Part shown: in pieces, positions 2-8,025 of the stretch | How the letters are laid out: the number at the start of each line of letters is the position of its first letter | Position numbering within the stretch: the first letter of the stretch is position 1 | Source of the DNA: Thermodesulfobacteriota bacterium | Lineage (GTDB): Bacteria; Desulfobacterota; DSM-4660; Desulfatiglandales; HGW-15 | Assembly: GCA_025454125.1 (NCBI GenBank) | Contig: JALOPA010000061.1 | Span: forward strand, 1-8,025 | Length of the DNA: 8,025 bases | Direction: 5' to 3' | The notes under the pieces: model-generated | What the model was told of the DNA's origin: nothing | The model's input: only the letters and a program-made list of their open reading frames with translations | The model's database searches: none | Translations under genes and position numbers: made by a program

Positions 2-919
2 TTTGAACTCAAAGAAGCAGGAATTCTCACGGATTCAGACTTTGCAGGGTGTCCCTCCGACAACGCAGGCAAGTTCTACTGGCTGCTGGACCGGATTGTC
101 CGGCGGGAAGGCATTGGAGATGTTCTGGCCAACGGCAGCTACTGGGCGGCCAAGCAGATCGGAAAGGGCGCAGAGGCCTATGCGCACAACAACATCAAGA
201 AGCATGAGCAGCTCCCTCTCAAGCTGGGAATGCTCAATCCCATTTATTACCTGATGTACTGCACCGGGGAGAAGTCGAACATCACCCAGATCGAGGGGAA
301 CTTCCCCCAGGCGCCCTTCTCAACAAAAGAGCTGAAAGAGGCCTTCGTGAAGGACTGGGTCCAGGCCCCCAACGACAAATTCAAGCAATACGTTCTGGAT
401 TGGGAGATGCGAGGGGAGCGCTCCATGCCCTTCTGGCCGCCGGTCGAAGCCTGCTGTGAAATCGTGGACTGGCAGGAGAAGATGCACCACATTGACGACG
501 CTCTTGGGTTGTGCGCCGGCTTGTCGTCCTTCCCCCTCAAGCCGCCCTACCACATCCACAACCTGCCGCTCTTCATTTCAGCGGCGACCGGGATGGACAT
601 GGATGAAGAGGGGCTGACGAAAATCTTCAACCGGAACCGGAACCTGGTGCGGGCCATCAATGTGAGAAGAGGATTGAGAAGGGTTGACGAGACGCCTCCG
701 GAAGACCATTGGAAGAAGCGGTTCCCGGAGCTCGAGAAGCAGCTCCTGGACGGCTACTACAAGTTCAAGGGGTGGAACGACGATGGCATTCCTACCAAAG
801 AGTCTCTGCAGGCCCTGGGTTTGGATTATGTCGCAGAGGACTTTCTCAAGAGGGGCATCCTGAAGGACAATGGAGGCGCCCCCTCCAAGGAAAGCCCGGC
901 TGAAACAAAAAAGAAATAA
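2..919 (+). CDS. bamB: Class II benzoyl-CoA reductase, tungsten active-site subunit BamB (AOR family), 3' part only
   Basis: The frame is open from base 2 to the TAA at 917-919 and gives 305 C-terminal residues; the family is about 650 aa, so roughly half lies left of the window. The part present matches the C-terminal domains of aldehyde:ferredoxin oxidoreductases: an early REGIGDVLANGS segment and the DDALGLC motif near residues 165-171 of the fragment (Cys codon 512-514). In AOR enzymes this last motif helps bind the tungstopterin and supplies the fourth ligand of the [4Fe-4S] cluster; the other three cysteines would be upstream. In the family the subunit reduces the benzoyl-CoA ring to a cyclic dienoyl-CoA in the cytoplasm without ATP. 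The naming relies on the following bamC-F genes, because the fragment alone could be another AOR paralogue. Translation ends in a Lys-rich tail, 21 nt before bamC. Confidence 0.8.
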   Translation, partial: FELKEAGILTDSDFAGCPSDNAGKFYWLLDRIVRREGIGDVLANGSYWAAKQIGKGAEAYAHNNIKKHEQLPLKLGMLNPIYYLMYCTGEKSNITQIEGNFPQAPFSTKELKEAFVKDWVQAPNDKFKQYVLDWEMRGERSMPFWPPVEACCEIVDWQEKMHHIDDALGLCAGLSSFPLKPPYHIHNLPLFISAATGMDMDEEGLTKIFNRNRNLVRAINVRRGLRRVDETPPEDHWKKRFPELEKQLLDGYYKFKGWNDDGIPTKESLQALGLDYVAEDFLKRGILKDNGGAPSKESPAETKKK

Positions 920-924
920 GCTGA

Positions 925-934
925 AGAGGTGGTG
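925..934 (+). promoter_or_regulatory. Ribosome binding site of bamC
   Basis: AGAGGTGGTG contains GAGGTG, a good match to the 3' end of 16S rRNA, about 8-10 nt before the ATG at 941. It decides the start: the in-frame GTG codons at 929 and 932 lie inside this motif and cannot use it. Confidence 0.65.
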
Positions 935-940
935 ACCGTC

Positions 941-1489
941 ATGGGTGAGAAAAAAAAGAAAATCGTCAAGACGATCAAAGTGGATCTGGACAAGTGCAAC
1001 GGTTGCCGGGCATGTGAGGTCGTCTGCTCCGCCTTTCACGCGGCGCCGAAATACAGCAGCAACAATCCGGCAAGGTCCAGAATCCGTGTGATTCATGAAC
1101 CGCTCCGGGACGTCTATGTCCCTGTGTATGCGGGCGAGTATGCCAAGGCCGAGTGCATGGGCCGCGACAAGTACGTAATTGACGGAAAGGAATACGACGA
1201 ATGCAGCTTTTGCAGGGCCTCCTGCCCGTCCAGGGACATCTTCAAAGAACCCGACTCCGGTCTTCCTCTCAAGTGCGACATGTGCGAAGACGACCCGAAG
1301 CAGGAGAAACCCCTGTGCGTCCAGTGGTGCCTGAACGACGCTTTGGTTTACGAGGAAAGGGAAGAGGAAGTCGAAGAGGAAGTGAAGCAGGAGGACGTGG
1401 AGATCGGACTGGATTCCATGATCGACAAGTACGGGCTGGAAAAGGTCATGGACACCGTCAATCGAATGGCTCTCTCCAAGAAGGAATAG
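941..1489 (+). CDS. bamC: Benzoyl-CoA reductase electron-transfer subunit BamC (three [4Fe-4S] clusters)
   Basis: A 182-aa soluble ferredoxin-like protein with no signal peptide. Cysteines fall into a CxxCxxCxxxC set (C19, C22, C25, C29), a CxxCxxxC set (C88, C91, C95) and a CxxC...CxxxC set (C112, C115, C126, C130), with one extra (C72). Twelve ligands fit three [4Fe-4S] clusters, in the fold of the HycB/DmsB-type iron-sulfur subunits. Stretches such as RDIFKEPDSGLPLKCDMCE look specific to the BamC group rather than to generic ferredoxins. In the known BamBC complex this subunit carries electrons to the tungsten subunit. The tail (about residues 138-155) is strongly acidic (EEREEEVEEE). It follows bamB by 21 nt and is probably co-transcribed with it. 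The ATG at 941 was preferred to the GTG codons upstream because of the Shine-Dalgarno position. Confidence 0.85.
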   Translation: MGEKKKKIVKTIKVDLDKCNGCRACEVVCSAFHAAPKYSSNNPARSRIRVIHEPLRDVYVPVYAGEYAKAECMGRDKYVIDGKEYDECSFCRASCPSRDIFKEPDSGLPLKCDMCEDDPKQEKPLCVQWCLNDALVYEEREEEVEEEVKQEDVEIGLDSMIDKYGLEKVMDTVNRMALSKKE

Positions 1490-1498
1490 GAATAAAGC

Positions 1499-1564
1499 AG
1501 TGACAAGTGACAAGTCACGAGTGAAAAGTTAAGATTTTAATCTCGCTCCTTGTTCATTGTCACT
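1499..1564 (+). repeat. Heptamer-period inverted array between bamC and bamD
   Basis: The 84-nt gap holds 7-bp units in head-to-head orientation. The + strand units are AGTGACA (1499), AGTGACA (1506), AGTCACG (1513), AGTGAAA (1520) and AGTTAAG (1527). Read from the - strand, the right half gives AGTGACA (1564-1558), ATGAACA (1557-1551), AGGAGCG (1550-1544) and AGATTAA (1543-1537). The outer ends AGTGACAA and TTGTCACT are perfect inverted repeats, and the centre AGATT-TT-AATCT is a second perfect one (1532-1543). The function is unknown. Confidence 0.75.
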
Positions 1565-1573
1565 CATAAGTAA

Positions 1574-2758
1574 ATGAGTTCGCCAAAAAAAGAGGAAAGA
1601 ACAGTGGAAACCGTAGCCCCATACAAAGAGATCATTGATGTCATCAAGGCGAGCGGCGGAGACGCCTTCAAGCGGTGCTTCCAGTGCGGACTGTGCGATG
1701 TGGTCTGCCCCTGGAACAAGGTCACGAAATTCAGCATGCGCAAGATCGTCCGGGAAGCCACCTTCGGTTTGACGGACATAGAAACGGAAGACATCTGGCG
1801 CTGCACGACCTGCGGCAGGTGCCCTCAGCAGTGCCCCAGGGACGTGAAGCAGATCGACTCCGGGGTGGCCCTGCGCAGGGTGGCCACGGAGTACGGCGTT
1901 TTCCCCAAGCCGGTCAAACCGGTGCGGACCGTCAACGCAGGCCTGGTCGCTCAGGGGAACCCCTTTGGGGAAGACCGGGAAAAGAGGGCGGCCTGGGCCG
2001 AAGGGCTCTCGGTCAACCCCTTCACCGAGGGCATGGAGTACTTGTACTTCCCCGGCTGCTACCTCTGCTATGATCCGCGATCCAAGAAAGTGGCAAAAGC
2101 CACAGCAGCGATTCTCAACATGGCAGGCGCGGATTACGGGATCCTGGGGTCTGCGGAGAACTGCTGTGGGGAAAGCATCCGCAAGACAGGCGATGAAGCG
2201 CTGTTCAAACGCCTGGCCAGAGAAAACATCAAGACCTTCGTCGACAACGGGGTGAAAAAAATCGTGGTCTCTTCGCCCCACTGCCTCCACACCTTCAAAA
2301 ACGAGTATCCCGACTTCAGGGTGAACTTCGAAGTGCTTCACATAACCCAATTGTTGTTCCAGCTGATCCAGGAGGGGAAGATCAAGCTCACCAAGGAGTA
2401 CGGGAAAAAAGTGGCTTATCACGACCCCTGTTATCTGGGCCGGCACAACGGCATCTTCGATGAGCCCCGGGGTATTCTGAACAAGGTGCCCGGTCTGGAG
2501 CTGAAAGAGTTGCCGGAGGCGAGGATCGACAGCCTCTGCTGCGGAGGCGGAGGCGGCAGGGTGTGGATGGAAACGCAAAAAGGCGAACGGTTCTCCGACC
2601 TCCGAATGGAGCAAGCGATCGGGGTCGGGGCCGAGGTGCTGGTCACGGCCTGCCCCTACTGCATCACCATGTTCGAGGACAGCAGGCTGACCCTGAACGT
2701 GACTGAAAAGATCGAGGTCAAGGACATCACGGAGATCGTCCAGGAAGTGATCGAATAA
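1574..2758 (+). CDS. bamD: HdrD-like subunit BamD (HdrC-type ferredoxin domain fused to HdrB-type CCG domains)
   Basis: A 394-aa cytosolic iron-sulfur protein. The N-terminal part has two classical [4Fe-4S] motifs: C35, C38, C41, C45 and C77, C80, C83, C87, each followed by Pro. Next come two CCG domains as in HdrB/HdrD. The first has C162 (and C165), C197-C198 and C237, but Ser replaces the first Cys of the final CxxC (S234-P-H-C237). The second is complete: C286, C322-C323, C360-P-Y-C363. In heterodisulfide reductases such domains bind noncubane [4Fe-4S] clusters; in the Bam complex the electron acceptor of this subunit is not settled. The ATG at 1574 follows an in-frame TAA, so the frame cannot extend upstream, but no Shine-Dalgarno sequence precedes it. 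A GTG at 1604 sits behind AGAGGAAAG and could be the real start (384 aa). Gaps of 84 nt before and 122 nt after are filled by repeats. Confidence 0.85.
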   Translation: MSSPKKEERTVETVAPYKEIIDVIKASGGDAFKRCFQCGLCDVVCPWNKVTKFSMRKIVREATFGLTDIETEDIWRCTTCGRCPQQCPRDVKQIDSGVALRRVATEYGVFPKPVKPVRTVNAGLVAQGNPFGEDREKRAAWAEGLSVNPFTEGMEYLYFPGCYLCYDPRSKKVAKATAAILNMAGADYGILGSAENCCGESIRKTGDEALFKRLARENIKTFVDNGVKKIVVSSPHCLHTFKNEYPDFRVNFEVLHITQLLFQLIQEGKIKLTKEYGKKVAYHDPCYLGRHNGIFDEPRGILNKVPGLELKELPEARIDSLCCGGGGGRVWMETQKGERFSDLRMEQAIGVGAEVLVTACPYCITMFEDSRLTLNVTEKIEVKDITEIVQEVIE

Positions 2759-2762
2759 GAGA

Positions 2763-2859
2763 GGAATGATGGAATGATGGAAGAATGGAATAGACAAGGA
2801 AGGCACCTGTCAGGGAGTTTCTGCAATATTCCAGTATTCCAGTATTCCCGTATTCCATT
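2763..2859 (+). repeat. Octamer-period inverted array between bamD and bamE
   Basis: The left arm has 8-bp units GGAATGAT (2763), GGAATGAT (2771), GGAAGAAT (2779) and a partial GGAATAG (2787). The right arm has ATTCCAGT (2828), ATTCCAGT (2836), ATTCCCGT (2844) and ATTCCATT (2852). The GGAAT and ATTCC cores are complementary and keep the same 8-bp phase, so the arms can pair around a loop of about 34 nt. On the - strand such sequence translates as the HHSIIP-like runs often seen in spurious ORFs. It fills most of the 122-nt gap and ends about 9 nt before the bamE ribosome binding site. Confidence 0.75.
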
Positions 2860-2867
2860 TTTTCGAC

Positions 2868-2872
2868 TGGAG
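2868..2872 (+). promoter_or_regulatory. Ribosome binding site of bamE
   Basis: TGGAG ends 8 nt before the GTG at 2881 and is the only purine-rich motif close to it. It supports GTG as the start codon and places the full FAD-binding Rossmann motif (VVGGGISG) about 20 residues in, as expected. Confidence 0.55.
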
Positions 2873-2880
2873 AAATAAAA

Positions 2881-5800
2881 GTGGAAAAAGAACAAGTGGA
2901 ACAGGTTGCCAAGAGTGTAGAGGACAGTCCCTATGGGGACGTCATGGTTGTGGGCGGGGGGATCAGCGGCATCCAAGCCTCTCTGGACCTTGCCACGGCC
3001 GGGTTCAAGGTTTACCTGGTTGAAAAGGCCCCCAGCATCGGCGGCCACATGGCGCAGCTGGACAAGACCTTTCCCACCAACGACTGCTCCATGTGAATTC
3101 TCGCACCGAAACTGGTCGAGGTCGGCCGGCATCCGAACATCGAAGTCCTGACGTACACGGAAGTGGATCGGGTTGAAGGAGAGGTGGGAGACTTCAGGGT
3201 CACCCTGGTCAAGAAGCCCAGGTACATTCTGGAGGACAAATGCACGGGGTGTACCACGTGCGTGGAGTACTGCCCTGTCAAGTACCCGGATCAGTACAAC
3301 CAGGAGATCTCCAAGAACAAAGCGGTCCATGTGTATTTTGCACAGGCCATACCGCTGATCACCTACATCGACGAAAGCTGTCTTTATCTCAAGGAAGGGA
3401 AGTGCCGCATCTGCGAAGGAGTGTGCAAGAACAACGCCATCGATCTGAAGCAGACCGCCCAGAGGAAAGAAATCAGCGTGGGGGCGATCGTCCTGGCTCC
3501 GGGCTTTGAACCCTTTGATCCCAAGACCAAGAAGGAATACCACTACGGAGAGTTCGCCAACGTGGTCACCAGCATGGACTATGAGCGGCTGCTCTGCTCC
3601 ACGGGTCCCTACGCCGGTGAGATCCTGCGCGCCTCCGACATGAAACACCCCCACAATGTCGCCTGGATTCAGTGCGTCGGGTCCCGGCGGGTCACGCCGG
3701 GAGAGAACAGCTACTGCTCCGCGGTGTGCTGCACCTACACGCAGAAACAGGTGATTCTGACCAAAGACCATGACGCCGGAGCGAAGTGCACCATCTTCCA
3801 CAATGACATCCGCTCCTACGGAAAGGATTTTGAGCGCTACTACGAGAGGACGGAGAAGCTCCCTGAGGTTCGCTTCATCCGGAGCTACACCTCCATCGTG
3901 AGGGAGGACCCCGTCACCAAGAACGTCACGGTGCGATACTCCAACCCCGAGGAGGGCGTCAAAGAAGAGGAGTTCGACATGGTGGTCCTGTCCATCGGGT
4001 TGAACCCTCCGACCGATGCCAAGGAGATCGCGCAGAAGTTCGGCATTCAGCTCGACACCAACGATTTCTGCAAGCTCGATCCGGTCAACCCCATGGTGAC
4101 CAACAAGCCCGGCATCTTCGTGAGCGGAGGCTTCCAGGGGCCCATCGACATCCCGGAGTCTGTGTTCAGCGCCAGCGGCGCCGGCTCCCAGATCGGCCAG
4201 CTTCTGGATTACCGGCGAGGCAACCTTGCCAAGGAAAGGGTCTACGCCACGGAGCGGGACGTGTCCAAAGAGGAGCCGAGGATCGGGGTTTTCGTTTGCC
4301 ACTGCGGGGCCAACATCGGAAGGATCGTCAATGTCCCTGACACCGTGGAGTACTGCAAGACCCTGCCCAATGTGGTCTACGCCCAGGAACAGCTCTTCTC
4401 CTGCGCCACCAACTCGGCCAAAGAGATCACGGACGTGACCAAGGAAAAGGGCCTCAACCGGGTGGTGATCGCCGCCTGCTCGCCCAGGACCCTGGAACCT
4501 CTTTTCCGGGACACGGTTCGGGAGGCGGGGATCAACCAGTACTTCTGTGAAATGGCGAATATCCGGGAGCACAACTCCTGGGTTCACTCCAAGGAAAAGG
4601 AAGAGGCCACCGAGAAAGCCAAGGACATCATCCGCATGTCGGTAGCCCGGGCCTGCCACCTGGAACCGTTGCAGGAATTCGACCTGCCTGTTGACAAGGC
4701 CGCGCTCGTGGTGGGCGGCGGCGTTGCCGGCATGAACTGCGCCCTCTCCATCGCCAGCCAGGGACACGAAGTCCACCTGGTGGAAAAAGCCAACGAGTTG
4801 GGCGGGGTTGTACGGAAGATCCATTCCACCCTGGACGGATTGGACGTGCAGGCCTACTTGCGCGACCTGATCGCCAAGGTCTACAAGCACCCGCTGATCC
4901 ACGTCTATCACAACGCGACCATCCCCCAGGCCACCGGCTACGTGGGCAACTTCGTGACCACGGTGAAGTCCGAAACCGGGGTTGCGGAGATCAAACATGG
5001 GGCCGCTGTCCTGGCCATTGGGGCCGATCTCTACACGCCCACCGAGTACCTCTACGGACAGGACGACAGGGTCGTGACCCATCTGGATCTGGAGGAGAAG
5101 ATCGTCAAGGGCGACGAGAAGATCATGAATGCCAAGAGCGTGGTCATGATCCAGTGCGTGGGCTGCAGAAACGAGGATAGAAACTACTGCAGCCGCATCT
5201 GCTGCAGCCAGTCCGTGAAGAACGCCCTCAAGCTCAAAGAGAAGAACCCGCAGGTGGACGTCACCATCCTCTTCAGGGACATGAGAACCTATGGCTTCAA
5301 AGAGAATTCCTACCGGGAAGCCTCGGAGAAGGACGTGAAGTTCATCCGCTACGAGCCGCAGGATCCGCCTCAGGTGGAAGCGGGAGAGTCGGACGAGGGC
5401 CGGCCTGTGCTCAAGGTCACGGCAACGGACTACATTTTGGGCAAGAAGATCGTTCTCGACGCCGATGTGCTTGCCTTGGCGGCCGCCGTCATTCCTTCCG
5501 CAGCGACTCAGGAAATCGCCAACCTCTTCAAGGTCACACTGAGCCCGGACGGCTTCTTCAAAGAGGCCCACGTCAAATTGAGACCGGTGGAGTTCGGGAC
5601 GGATGGCGTTTATCTGTGCGGCCTGGCCCACTACCCCAAGTTCATGCAGGAAACGATCAACCAGGCCTACGGGGCTGCGGGCCGGGTGTTGACCCTTCTC
5701 TCCCACGACACGGGGGTGGCCTCCGGGTCTGTGTGCCAGGTGAATGAGGCCCGGTGCATGGGGTGCGGGGCCTGTGTGGCCGCCTGCACTTACGGGGCCC

Positions 5801-6006
5801 TGGACCTGCGTGAGACCAAGCAGGGAAAGAAGGCCACGGTCAATCCTGTTCTCTGCAAAGGGGACGGGTTGTGCAACACCAAGTGCCCTACAGGCGCTAT
5901 ACAGCTCAAGCACTACACGGATGAGGAGCTTATCAGCGAAATCGACGCGATCGCTCCCAAGGAAGAGATTTTGCCGCAAATGGGTAAAGCGGTGGGGGAT
6001 GTGTAG
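2881..6006 (+). CDS. bamE: Selenocysteine-containing duplicated HdrA-like subunit BamE
   Basis: Reading the TGA at 3094-3096 as selenocysteine gives 1041 aa. Order of domains: FAD Rossmann motif VVGGGISG (about residues 23-30); the HdrA signature NDCSM-U72-ILAPKLVE, where the family usually has Cys; two [4Fe-4S] motifs (C121, C124, C127, C131 and C167, C175, C178, C182); the rest of the HdrA flavoprotein; a CHCG segment (C473, C475) opening a linker; a second Rossmann motif VVGGGVAG (about 610-617); and a C-terminal two-cluster ferredoxin (C959, C962, C965, C969 and C992, D995, C998, C1002). The last motif has Asp at the second ligand position. HdrA proteins are the flavin-based bifurcating core of heterodisulfide reductases; two HdrA units in one chain fit BamE, and family size is about 1000 aa. 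It is cytosolic. Standard gene calling would give a 71-residue piece and a start at the internal GTG 3163. The next gene, bamF, is 235 nt away. Confidence 0.87.
3094..3096 (+). other. Selenocysteine codon (UGA) of bamE, residue 72
   Basis: The TGA follows CSM and precedes ILAPKLVE in one unbroken frame. This is the HdrA segment where a conserved Cys sits, and some methanogen HdrA proteins also have Sec there. The downstream frame stays open for 969 residues with intact family motifs, so neither a true stop nor a frameshift fits. Confidence 0.88.
3100..3120 (+). promoter_or_regulatory. SECIS-like hairpin in bamE
   Basis: CTCG-c-ACC (3100-3107) pairs with GGTCGAG (3114-3120), leaving one bulged C and a GAAACT loop that starts with G. 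An alternative fold pairs CCGA (3106-3109) with TCGG (3122-3125) and puts GGT in the loop. The first fold starts only 3 nt after the UGA, closer than in the E. coli fdhF element, so which one acts is uncertain. Confidence 0.4.
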
Positions 6007-6084
6007 AAGGGCAAGAAGGAGTTCAGCTGCAATCAGTAAGAGCCGCTGACCGCCGGGACGACTTCGCAAGAAGCCTTCCAGGTC

Positions 6085-6172
6085 GTCACCCCGGCGAACC
6101 CGCCTGAGGCGGACAAGAGCCGGGGTCCAGAACGCATTGGAATTGCTGGATTCCGGCTTCCGCCGGAATGAC
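6085..6172 (+). repeat. Dispersed palindromic repeat (VIPAEAGIQ type) between bamE and bamF
   Basis: GTCACCCCGGCG at 6085 and CGCCGGAATGAC at 6161-6172 are near-perfect inverted ends. Inside are CCGCC-TGA-GGCGG, nested within CCCCGGC...GCCGGGG, and a perfect hairpin ATTCCGGC-TTCC-GCCGGAAT (6150-6169). Read on the - strand the right end encodes VIPAEAGIQ, a telltale of a repeat found in many copies in diverse proteobacterial genomes. It occupies the middle of the 235-nt bamE-bamF gap; nothing recognisable lies in 6007-6084. Confidence 0.75.
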
Positions 6173-6210
6173 GGAAAAGGCTGCTTCCGGACTTCTAATA
6201 AGTTGATTAA

Positions 6211-6225
6211 GCCGGGATCTCCGGC
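6211..6225 (+). promoter_or_regulatory. Small hairpin just upstream of the bamF ribosome binding site
   Basis: GCCGG (6211-6215), loop GATCT, CCGGC (6221-6225) make a perfect 5-bp GC-rich stem ending 3 nt before the purine-rich ribosome binding region. It could affect ribosome access or mark an RNA processing end; the stem is short and may be chance. Confidence 0.3.
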
Positions 6226-6228
6226 AAA

Positions 6229-6235
6229 GAGGTGA
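6229..6235 (+). promoter_or_regulatory. Ribosome binding site of bamF
   Basis: GAGGTGA is an extended match to the 16S rRNA 3' end, 6 nt before the ATG at 6242. This strong site supports a start before the TGA at 6296, and so the selenoprotein reading. The internal ATG at 6353 has no comparable site. Confidence 0.75.
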
Positions 6236-6241
6236 GAACCA

Positions 6242-7078
6242 ATGAGTGCAGTAGCAAAATTCAAGCCGAAGGTATTGGGTTTCGTCTGCCACTGGTGAGC
6301 GTACGGGGCTGCTGACCTAGCTGGAGTTTCCAGACTACAATATACCACAGAGATGAGGCTGATCCGCGTCATGTGTTCGGGCCGGGTGGACATGGGCTTT
6401 GTCCTGCGGGCCTTTTCCAACGGCATGGACGGGGTGTTTATCGGCGGCTGCCGCTTGAACGAGTGCAATTACGTCACCCACGGAAATTACCACTCCCTCA
6501 ACATGGTGCTTCTCCTGAGAAGAATCCTGGAGCATGTCGGGCTCAACCCGGAACGGTTGAGGATCGAGTTCATGTCCGGCGCCGAAGCCAACCTGTTCGT
6601 GGAGGACGTCAATGGGTTTGTCAAGAAGGTGAAGGCTCTGGGTCCTCTTGGGGAAGCTGAAGGAATCGACCGGCAGGAGCTGAAAGCACGTCTCGCTGAG
6701 ATGTCGAAGCTGGTTCCTTACTTCAAGCTGATGAACCAGGAGAAGCTGGCCTCCCGTTTCAAGACTCGGGAAGAACATGAAGGACTGTTCACCAAAGAGG
6801 AGATCGACAAGCTGTTCAGTGAGATGGTCTCCTACTACATCGATCCGGAAAAGTGCCAGGCCTGCATGACCTGCCTCAGGAGATGCCCTGCAGAAGCAAT
6901 CATAGGCGGCAAAAACAAGATCCACGTGATCGACCAGGACAAGTGCATCAAGTGTGGAACGTGCTTTGAAGTGTGCCCCCCGCGCTTTGCATCGATCAAG
7001 AAGCTTTCCGGCGAACCTGTGCCGCCTCCCCTTCCTGAAGAGAAAAGGACTCTGGTCAGAAAGGCCAAAGAAAAATAG
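6242..7078 (+). CDS. bamF: Selenocysteine-containing MvhD-like subunit BamF with C-terminal ferredoxin domain
   Basis: Reading the TGA at 6296-6298 as selenocysteine gives 278 aa. Residues 11-125 are an MvhD/FrhD-type domain: FVCHW-U19-AYGAADLAGVSRLQY, then IRVMCSGRVD (C45) and GGCRLNEC (C70, C75). U19 replaces the second Cys of the usual CxWC motif. MvhD carries a [2Fe-2S] cluster and passes electrons from a hydrogenase or other partner to HdrA; here the partner would be BamE. After a charged linker (about 126-200) come two [4Fe-4S] motifs, C205, C208, C211, C215 and C235, C238, C241, C245, then a Pro- and Lys-rich tail. Stand-alone MvhD is only about 140 aa, so this is a fused form. Without recoding, the gene would be called from the ATG at 6353 and lose the metal-binding N-terminus. 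It is the last gene of the + strand run. Confidence 0.87.
6296..6298 (+). other. Selenocysteine codon (UGA) of bamF, residue 19
   Basis: The TGA falls exactly at the second Cys position of the conserved MvhD N-terminal CxWC motif (C16-H-W-U19). The motif starts upstream of the TGA and continues downstream (AYGAADLAGVSR) in the same frame. Confidence 0.9.
6318..6337 (+). promoter_or_regulatory. SECIS hairpin in bamF
   Basis: CTGGA (6321-6325) pairs perfectly with TCCAG (6329-6333) around a GTT loop beginning with G. TAG (6318-6320) extends the stem with CTA (6335-6337) across one bulged A. The stem starts 19 nt and the loop 27 nt after the UGA, within the spacing usual for bacterial SECIS elements that recruit SelB. 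Confidence 0.65.
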
Positions 7079-7104
7079 GAGAAGTCCCGAAAGGGACTTC
7101 TCCT
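7077..7104. terminator. Intrinsic terminator, mainly for fdhD (- strand), overlapping the bamF stop
   Basis: AGGAGAAGTCCC (7077-7088), loop GAAA, GGGACTTCTCCT (7093-7104): a perfect 12-bp stem that includes the last two bases of the bamF TAG. On the - strand it is followed by ATTTTTCTTT, the complement of the A-rich final Lys codons of bamF, giving a textbook terminator for fdhD. On the + strand no T-tract follows (CACTCCCG), so stopping of the bam transcript here would be weaker or depend on other factors. Confidence 0.75.
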
Positions 7105-7202
7105 CACTCCCGTTGCTCACTCCTTCTTTCCAAAAGAACCGGAATCCAACCTATTGCTCTCAAGCGGCAATGCCTCGCAGGTTTCTGAAAAACACCTGTC
7201 TT

Positions 7203-7329
7203 GCAGGCTGCTCAAAAACGGCCAGATGCAAGGCGGCCGAAGTCCCGAGGAATGAGACGTACAGTCCAGTACGTCGCAATGACGAGGGACGAGGACAACG
7301 CAGCAGATGGGCGTTTTTCAGCAGCCTGC
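7203..7329 (+). repeat. Imperfect long inverted repeat between bamF and fdhD
   Basis: The ends GCAGGCTGCT (7203-7212) and AGCAGCCTGC (7320-7329) are perfect inverted copies. Pairing continues through AAAAACG and its complement CGTTTTT and returns in the near-palindromic centre GACGTAC...GTACGTC. A degenerate copy of the left end (GCAGG-TTTCT-GAAAAAC) starts at 7177. There is no ORF that looks like a transposase, so this is a MITE- or REP-like dispersed element. Sequence at 7105-7176 shows nothing recognisable. Confidence 0.75.
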
Positions 7330-8025
7330 CAGGCGGCGGGAACCGCAGTAGACATTAATCCCTGACCCCTTGAACGGCGAGGCCAGGGTCATATTCAGGG
7401 AGTCGGCGAGCTCCACGGCCAGGGCCGTAGGACGGGAGGCTGCCAGGATAAAGGGAATTTTGGCTCGCGCAGCCTTTTGTACAAGCTCGTAGCTGATGCG
7501 GGAAGAGAGGATCAGGATCGCCGCCTGGTGCAAAGTCCTTTTGAGGAAAAGCTTGCCAATGGCCTTGTCCAGTGCGTTGTGGCGGCCAACGTCTTCAGCG
7601 AGAGACAGGAGTTCGAAGTTGGAGCTGTAGATGGCCGCAGCATGAGAGGCGCGGGTCTTCCGGTACAGGGCCTGGTGCTCCTTCAAGTTCTCAAGGCACT
7701 GATAGGCCCTTTCCAATTCAATGGCCGGACCGTCGGCCAGGGGCTTGACGATCTGAGAAAGGTCCTCGACGAGTTCCTTTCCGCAGATGCCGCAGCTTGT
7801 CTGACTCACAAAGCCCCGGCGCTCCAGCACTCCCTTGATGGAGCTCAGGCGGATCGGGTTGACCGTCAGGGTGACCACATTGGTCGCTTCCCCGTCGCAG
7901 GAGGCGATGGTTCCAACGTCGTCCGGGCTGTCCACGATGCCCTCGGCCAGACAAAACCCGGCCACATGGGCCGGTTCGTCCCCCGGGGTACGCATGACAA
8001 CAGCGTAGGGCTGGCCCTGAATCCG
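7318..8025 (-). CDS. fdhD: Formate dehydrogenase accessory sulfurtransferase FdhD, N-terminus outside the window
   Basis: The frame is open from the right edge to the TGA at 7320-7318 and gives 235 residues. FdhD proteins are about 260-280 aa, so some tens of N-terminal residues are missing. The ATG at 7995 is internal, because the family motif PYAVVMRTPGDE straddles it. Clear family marks are the TSCGICGKE motif (Cys codons 7794-7792 and 7785-7783), LAEDVGRHNALDKAIG, and SRPTALAVELA. FdhD takes sulfur from the cysteine desulfurase IscS and passes it through the CxxC to the molybdenum/tungsten bis-pterin cofactor, activating formate dehydrogenases in the cytoplasm. It is convergent with bamF, 239 nt apart. 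The last residues (LAGC) and the stop come from the adjoining inverted repeat. AOR-type enzymes are not known to need FdhD, so it probably serves a formate dehydrogenase encoded elsewhere. Confidence 0.95.
   Translation of the reverse strand, partial: RIQGQPYAVVMRTPGDEPAHVAGFCLAEGIVDSPDDVGTIASCDGEATNVVTLTVNPIRLSSIKGVLERRGFVSQTSCGICGKELVEDLSQIVKPLADGPAIELERAYQCLENLKEHQALYRKTRASHAAAIYSSNFELLSLAEDVGRHNALDKAIGKLFLKRTLHQAAILILSSRISYELVQKAARAKIPFILAASRPTALAVELADSLNMTLASPFKGSGINVYCGSRRLAGC

Follow-up and report, generated by a model that had tools for sequence, protein, structure and literature searches.

Class II benzoyl-CoA reductases reduce the benzene ring at -622 mV without ATP, and how they reach that potential is the question at stake here. 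In Geobacter, the genes of this tungsten enzyme stand in the order bamB-bamC-bamD-bamE-bamF and are followed by bamGHI, whose products have been proposed to be a BfuABC module that merges electrons of NADH and ferredoxin and passes them to the HdrA module (PMC9304861). The class II complex has also been proposed to perhaps bifurcate twice (PMC12096430), and a 2026 classification of tungsten oxidoreductases, in the part available, presents the Geobacter enzyme solely with BamGHI. We analyzed an 8,025-nucleotide stretch of a Thermodesulfobacteriota bacterium (the window; contig JALOPA010000061.1 of assembly GCA_025454125.1) that carries a bamBCDEF operon, together with 80 related loci from genome contigs (L001-L080, kept from 412 found). 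Judging from the sequence, the operon rather probably encodes a five-subunit variant, in which BamF has the ferredoxin end of BamH in place of its ArsR-like C-terminus, and which would be fed by ferredoxin and make no use of NADH.

The window shares with the Geobacter enzyme BamB and BamC and, by way of its relatives, BamD, BamE and the MvhD part of BamF, in the same gene order. It differs in that no bamGHI stand behind bamF, a BamH-type tail takes the place of the ArsR-like C-terminus, and BamE has a putative selenocysteine where the proteins of Geobacter loci L038 and L073 have cysteine (Cys). UGA-encoded selenocysteine in BamE is shared with the bam cluster of Desulfococcus multivorans (PMC5109826), where the passages available give it for BamE and an MvhD, not under the name BamF. 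The nearest published case is NaphS2 (PMC2988823), with BamB-BamF in one cluster and BamG-I, not adjoining, in another. With modules of the BfuABC/HydABC type (PMC9304861), the operon shares the BamF tail, whose homologue there is the C-terminal 2x[4Fe-4S] part of the B subunit; the flavin mononucleotide (FMN)/NADH core described there is missing, and so are subunits A and C. The head of BamF and BamE are shared with the MvhD/HdrABC complex of methanogens (5odc), at whose Cys residues the selenocysteines of the Bam proteins stand, whereas in the window HdrA is doubled, HdrC and HdrB are fused, no hydrogenase is present and the partner is the tungsten pair BamBC. In the literature surveyed, partly as excerpts and not including the original publications of the Geobacter and D. 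cetonica complexes, we found neither a tail swap between BamF and BamH nor a class II reductase without BamGHI.

Class II core and the two types of BamF

An earlier note on this DNA had recognized the bamBCDEF genes of a class II benzoyl-CoA reductase and had named a grouping of BamB with aldehyde-oxidizing members of the aldehyde oxidoreductase (AOR) family as a result that would speak against it. The identification is well supported by alignment for the catalytic pair BamBC. The alignment of window BamB with the structure of G. metallireducens BamB (4z3w_A) was gapless over residues 364-651 (487 bits, E 2.2e-145; 70.8% identity over 288 columns), in comparison with 44 bits for the best aldehyde-oxidizing AOR, and the full-length BamB of relative L001 was likewise nearer to BamB than to aldehyde oxidoreductases. 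BamC matched 4z3w_E with 281 bits, and the 12 Cys for three [4Fe-4S] clusters are kept in the alignment. Active-site residues, whose stretch lies upstream of the window, were checked in relatives, in G. metallireducens numbering, in 75 of the 86 rows of the BamB tree: C322 was found in 74, E251 in 72 (with 3 gaps), E257 in 74 and H260 in all 75. Cys322 is the tungsten ligand said to be absent from other members of the AOR and tungsten oxidoreductase (WOR) families except YdhV (PMC12096430). His255, described in the same source as an invariant Zn ligand, was present in only 40 of the 75 rows, with His at 254 instead in 18 and neither in 17; close to the window, BamB of L003 and L004 is of the His254 kind and that of L001 and L002 keeps His255.

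In the 17 genomes with relatives, among which the host genome is not included, BamA (TIGR03200) was above cut-off in 14 and BamQ (TIGR03201) in 13. BamR, searched with TIGR03189, was above cut-off in none of 9 genomes and reached E<=1e-60 in one, with a model that may not cover the enzyme of strict anaerobes. It is a reasonable inference that the host is an obligate anaerobe and an aromatic degrader.

The subunits given in the earlier note, and their order on the forward strand, also held, and all HdrCB, HdrA and MvhD parts of the class II bifurcation module are present. BamD consists of an HdrC-like part followed by an HdrB-like part with two CCG stretches. BamE has two HdrA-like halves, of which the first lacks the HdrA N-terminal domain and the second has it; it aligned to HdrA (5odc_A) in three stretches and matched NF040770 with E 1.5e-276, under the cut-off of that model. 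BamF consists of an MvhD/FlpD domain (E 8.4e-41 to 5odc_D) and a 2x[4Fe-4S] ferredoxin tail, and its predicted structure (mean predicted local distance difference test score, pLDDT, of 84.1) had 5odh_D as top Foldseek match. One claim did not stand, the one that places the MvhD-ferredoxin fusion within the known arrangement, since L038 and L073 of Geobacter have a short BamF and then bamGHI.

The 80 loci contained 50 BamF genes, which fell into two types. A short BamF without ferredoxin tail, followed by bamG or bamH, was found in 26, and a fused BamF with the tail, followed by neither, in 21; the other three were left untyped (L005, at a contig end; L043 at 4515, a 63-aa piece; L077, with 67 nt to the locus end). 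Thus none of the 47 typed genes had both the tail and bamG or bamH behind it. bamI was also present in 24 of the 26 short-type loci, L050 and L063 ending before it. Behind the fused genes, no bamG or bamH occurred within 3.5 kb, and the locus extended at least 619 nt beyond bamF in all 21. Six fused and five short BamF sequences, when aligned, agreed to about residue 196 and then diverged; short BamF proteins were 250-257 residues long except that of L058 (397), and fused ones 270-289 except for a partial read in L043.

The fused tail was 63-76% identical to 20 BamH tails and 51% identical to a partial one in L014, with the last motif common to both and homology reaching the last residues. Among PDB chains, B subunits of bifurcating hydrogenases and transhydrogenases and RnfB outscored free ferredoxins as matches of the tail. 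This end is not universal in BamH, as BamH of L016, L057 and L058 stops before it.

Two other ends were seen among the relatives. The short BamF of L059 (at 16767) has a C-terminal ArsR-like winged helix (HTH_5, E 1.8e-9), which is odd for an electron-transfer subunit and could be a docking or regulatory domain. In L022, an open reading frame (ORF) of 1028 aa (1291-4377) is BamH-like, with the ferredoxin end replaced, by eye, by a pyridine nucleotide oxidoreductase region of the glutamate-synthase-beta/NfnB type, possibly a third end for this module.

A clean split of the two types, made once, was expected and not found: only BamF groups by type. In the tail tree, from which one non-Bam row and tails shorter than 200 nt were excluded, a branch with support 100/97 split the fused BamF tails (22, including the window) from the 20 BamH tails. 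A further group was formed by the MvhD parts of fused BamF, with a support (94/90) below that of the starred branches. The trees of BamE (matches over 850 columns; 54 rows) and BamB (matches over 260 columns, minus-strand matches excluded; 86 rows, 46 typed and 40 without operon type), both made with a quick method, showed the types interleaved. The fused label needs 10 changes in the BamE tree, at least 7 of them forced by starred branches, and 9 in the BamB tree, at least 3 of them forced. By BamB, the nearest relatives of the window are L001-L004. Since BamF groups by type while the BamE and BamB trees interleave, our reading is that the fused BamF arose once and that the BamB-E core has repeatedly exchanged its input cassette, perhaps by way of tandem operons such as L003 and L057. 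The same tree pattern would result if tandem copies of BamE had undergone gene conversion.

Putative selenocysteine codons in bamE and bamF

A standard ORF caller starts bamE at 3163 and bamF at 6353, while the true starts lie upstream and each gene crosses an in-frame TGA. These codons, like the fdhD gene on the reverse strand, do not figure in the earlier note. Comparison with relatives says that both codons would be read as selenocysteine. At the BamE site, 49 of 60 BamE-like matches (one of the 60, L043 at 1426, being a 46% paralogue) had TGA and 11 had TGC, and the aligned residue of HdrA is Cys. At the BamF site, TGA was found in 44 of 49 BamF-like matches and TGC or TGT in 4, the remaining one (L004) falling in a masked stretch. 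Selenocysteine in BamE of D. multivorans has already been published (PMC5109826), so the finding is known in kind.

Rfam gave nothing useful for a selenocysteine insertion sequence (SECIS), the one match being a sub-threshold nematode small nucleolar RNA, and hairpins were therefore tested by comparison. Behind the BamE codon, a hairpin with a 7-bp stem and an AGGU loop was present in 48 of the 49 TGA genes and in none of the 11 Cys genes; behind the BamF codon, a 5-bp hairpin was present in 42 of 44 TGA genes and, at that place, in none of the 4 Cys genes. Over 48 distinct BamE sequences, 99.7% of stem cells were paired, with changes on both sides at two pairs (3 cells), and pairing dropped to 0.9-58.3% when the stem was slid. 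The BamF stem, with 98.5% of cells paired, is nearly invariant and therefore shows conservation and no covariation. Some counts speak against the hairpins: 55 of 77 stem cells remain paired in Cys-type BamE genes and 11 of 20 in Cys-type BamF genes, and when a longer region is folded, the four BamF genes of the Cys type are on average more stable, at -12.7 kcal/mol versus -9.7 kcal/mol for those with TGA. We found no 5-pair stem in Cys-type BamE, nor any at the place of the hairpin in Cys-type BamF.

In typed loci, BamE had TGA in all 21 of the fused type versus 17 of 26 of the GHI type, in which 9 had TGC. The ten Cys-type genes in the BamE tree form one group (support 87), and hence are not independent events. 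Because of selenocysteine, the true starts of BamE and BamF are missed by standard ORF calling, and such operons are easily misread.

Layout of the window and neighboring genes

The genes of the operon follow one another on the forward strand (Table 1), and of the 45 relative loci that extend 6.5 kb or more beyond BamB, 40 kept the B-C-D-E-F order, so that the five-gene arrangement is not due to chance. None of the five Bam proteins of the window was named above a curated NCBIfam cut-off. A 26-nt probe of the palindromic element between bamE and bamF was not found in L001-L080, and terminator scoring gave none on the forward strand. Behind bamF there are no bamGHI; its stop-codon hairpin is followed by the convergent fdhD. 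Overlapping inverted repeats with 30-nt arms, resembling repetitive extragenic palindromes (REP), lie between bamF and fdhD (7172-7334), and two 15-nt probes of them were not found in the 80 loci.

Table 1. Positions, strands and supporting evidence of features in the window
Feature	Position	Strand	Evidence
bamB, 3' part (305 aa), tungsten subunit	2..919	+	PF01314 (AFOR_C domain) E 4.1e-43; window begins within gene
bamC, three-cluster ferredoxin subunit, 186 aa, GTG start	929..1489	+	4z3w_E E 2.9e-83
bamD, HdrC-HdrB fusion, 394 aa	1574..2758	+	CCG E 1.6e-37, Fer4_8; HdrC and HdrB chains
bamE, double HdrA-like flavoprotein, 1041 aa	2881..6006	+	GTG start, GGAG upstream; 5odc_A E 1.4e-179
In-frame TGA, BamE residue 72 (putative selenocysteine)	3094..3096	+	Aligned codons of relatives
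SECIS-like hairpin, 7-bp stem, AGGU loop	3112..3129	+	Comparison of BamE relatives
bamE-bamF spacer with palindromic element	6007..6241	+	Read from sequence
bamF, fused type: FlpD/MvhD domain and ferredoxin tail, 278 aa	6242..7078	+	FlpD E 2.8e-45, Fer4
In-frame TGA, BamF residue 19 (putative selenocysteine)	6296..6298	+	Aligned with Cys of MvhD (5odc_D)
SECIS-like hairpin, 5-bp stem, GTT loop	6321..6333	+	Comparison of BamF relatives
BamF tail, homologous to C-terminal 2x[4Fe-4S] end of BamH	6830..7075	+	Alignments
12-bp hairpin at bamF stop codon, probable operon end	7077..7104	.	Scored as terminator on - strand
fdhD, sulfurtransferase family, convergent, 5' end beyond window	7318..8025	-	PF02634 E 2.7e-60; TIGR00129 above cut-off; CGIC motif

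Of the 80 loci, 21 have a gene of the fdhD family near a bam operon; it stands directly behind bamD in L035, L044, L057, L058, L061, L067 and L079, and ahead of bamE in the six of these with bamE in the locus. An expressed FdhD is also listed in a bam cluster (PMC13101534). An obligatory partnership was rejected, as 7 of 21 bam genomes, not a random pick, showed no FdhD match at E<=1e-20; for this reason, FdhD may serve maturation of the tungsten cofactor of BamB in some lineages only. In addition, a protein of about 150 aa is encoded beside bam operons in 24 loci (for example L007, L010, L014 and L023), often just before bamB, and the one member scanned was a GNAT acetyltransferase.

Electron input and alternative readings

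For the five-subunit variant that we favor, we infer an electron path at every step. Reduced ferredoxin would dock on the BamF tail, which in BamH is part of the NADH/ferredoxin module, and its electrons would pass through the selenocysteine-containing MvhD-type site of BamF to the flavin of BamE, where a single bifurcation of the HdrA type would take place. The low-potential branch would run over the ferredoxin domains of BamE and BamC to the tungsten-pterin of BamB for reduction of the ring, and the high-potential branch through BamD to a high-potential acceptor, perhaps electron-transferring flavoprotein (ETF) and menaquinone; NADH would have no part in it. As a lead to that acceptor, ETF genes stand beside a CCG/Fe-S protein near the fused-type operons of L004, L043, L044, L069 and L075 (domains scanned for L044 only). 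The D. multivorans cluster also contains ETF genes, bamOP (PMC5109826). We read the CCG protein as probably membrane-bound from its hydrophobic N-terminal part.

The most serious alternative is an ordinary eight-subunit class II enzyme, in which BamGHI encoded elsewhere would join in trans and the BamF tail would be an extra docking or relay domain. In 20 fused-BamF genomes (that of L057 excluded), full-length BamH at 70% identity or more was found only in G003; the others had NuoF-like best matches of 52-66%, and G030 had none at E<=1e-80. These drafts do not prove the absence of BamH, since BamH identified by position in L057 and L058 was only 63-65% identical to the probes.

A clearer picture came from the family of Desulfosarcina alkanivorans, where 14 of 30 genomes searched had a BamF match at E<=1e-60. 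Four of these, G017, G051, G055 and G056, all at the level of Desulfosarcinaceae, had the fused type only, and no BamH match above 58% identity was found in them; their best BamH matches were 51-58% identical, with alignments stopping at residue 611-623 of 642. G017 is the complete genome of D. alkanivorans, and G055 and G056 are represented by contigs of 6.5 and 7.3 Mb. Nine other genomes of the family had full-length BamH at 73-80%, both BamF types occurred in G038 and G046, and G045, the fourteenth, had short BamF genes, one of them at a contig end, with only a partial 53% BamH match. The four fused-only genomes also had BamB at 74-78% and BamA above cut-off, with a single BamB in G017. BamBC has been described, across 43 Desulfobacteraceae genomes, as confined to genera capable of aromatic degradation, including Desulfosarcina (PMC11887813); a literature search, as far as its listing shows, gave no record of D. 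alkanivorans growing on benzoate.

Several observations weigh against the five-subunit variant. Among near relatives of the window, where fused BamF was found at 69-82% in G001, G003, G004, G006 and G009, G003 carries in tandem a complete operon of the GHI type, and G001 has a second operon with a short BamF and a 60% BamH-like gene that ends before the tail, both of these second operons being divergent. Because of these second GHI-type genes, BamGHI may also be encoded elsewhere in the host of the window and act in trans. GHI genes stand upstream of the fused type in the tandem operons of L003 and L057, a separate BamG-I cluster is reported for NaphS2 (PMC2988823), and the NuoF-like matches of 60-66% in several fused-type drafts could be divergent BamH. 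ETF genes were also found near the GHI-type operons L021 and L045, and the active-site half of BamB lies outside the window. BamGHI joining in trans agrees poorly with the mutual exclusion of the BamF tail and bamG/H over the 47 typed genes and with the four Desulfosarcina-family genomes, and we consider it rather unlikely.

Still less likely is a BamB paralogue complex that acts on another aryl- or cyclohexadienoyl-CoA, or that runs in reverse in syntrophs, from cyclohexane carboxylate to the ring. The window BamB stands elsewhere in the tree than BamB of G. metallireducens, represented there by a C-terminal piece only, position 255 is not His in several relatives close to the window, and the relatives include records named Syntrophaceae and Desulfomonile. 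These points are set against the 70.8% identity to G. metallireducens BamB, the presence of BamA and BamQ in most of the 17 genomes, and drafts G002 and G007, which showed no other BamB-like match at E<=1e-30.

That bamE and bamF are pseudogenes or contain sequencing errors, with the TGA codons as real stops, would explain why standard ORF calling breaks both genes; it is very improbable and was rejected, as relatives have the same TGA or Cys codons in exchange, with one gap, and the hairpins accompany TGA only. An aldehyde oxidoreductase with an Hdr-type partner, to which the superfamily of BamB (PF01314) might point, can be dismissed nearly altogether from the bit scores and from Cys322, kept in 74 of 75 rows.

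Beyond the window, we tentatively suggest, with less assurance than for the five-subunit variant itself, that class II reductases have two interchangeable input cassettes, short BamF with BamGHI and fused BamF. BamE/BamB lineages would have swapped the fused cassette several times, across phyla. This cassette would take ferredoxin only, free of NADH, and HdrA-type bifurcation alone would power the reduction of the ring. Organisms apparently without BamGHI would show which part of the enzyme is indispensable and offer a five-subunit enzyme for study. If true, a very hard reaction, the reduction of the benzene ring, runs with two interchangeable power inputs.

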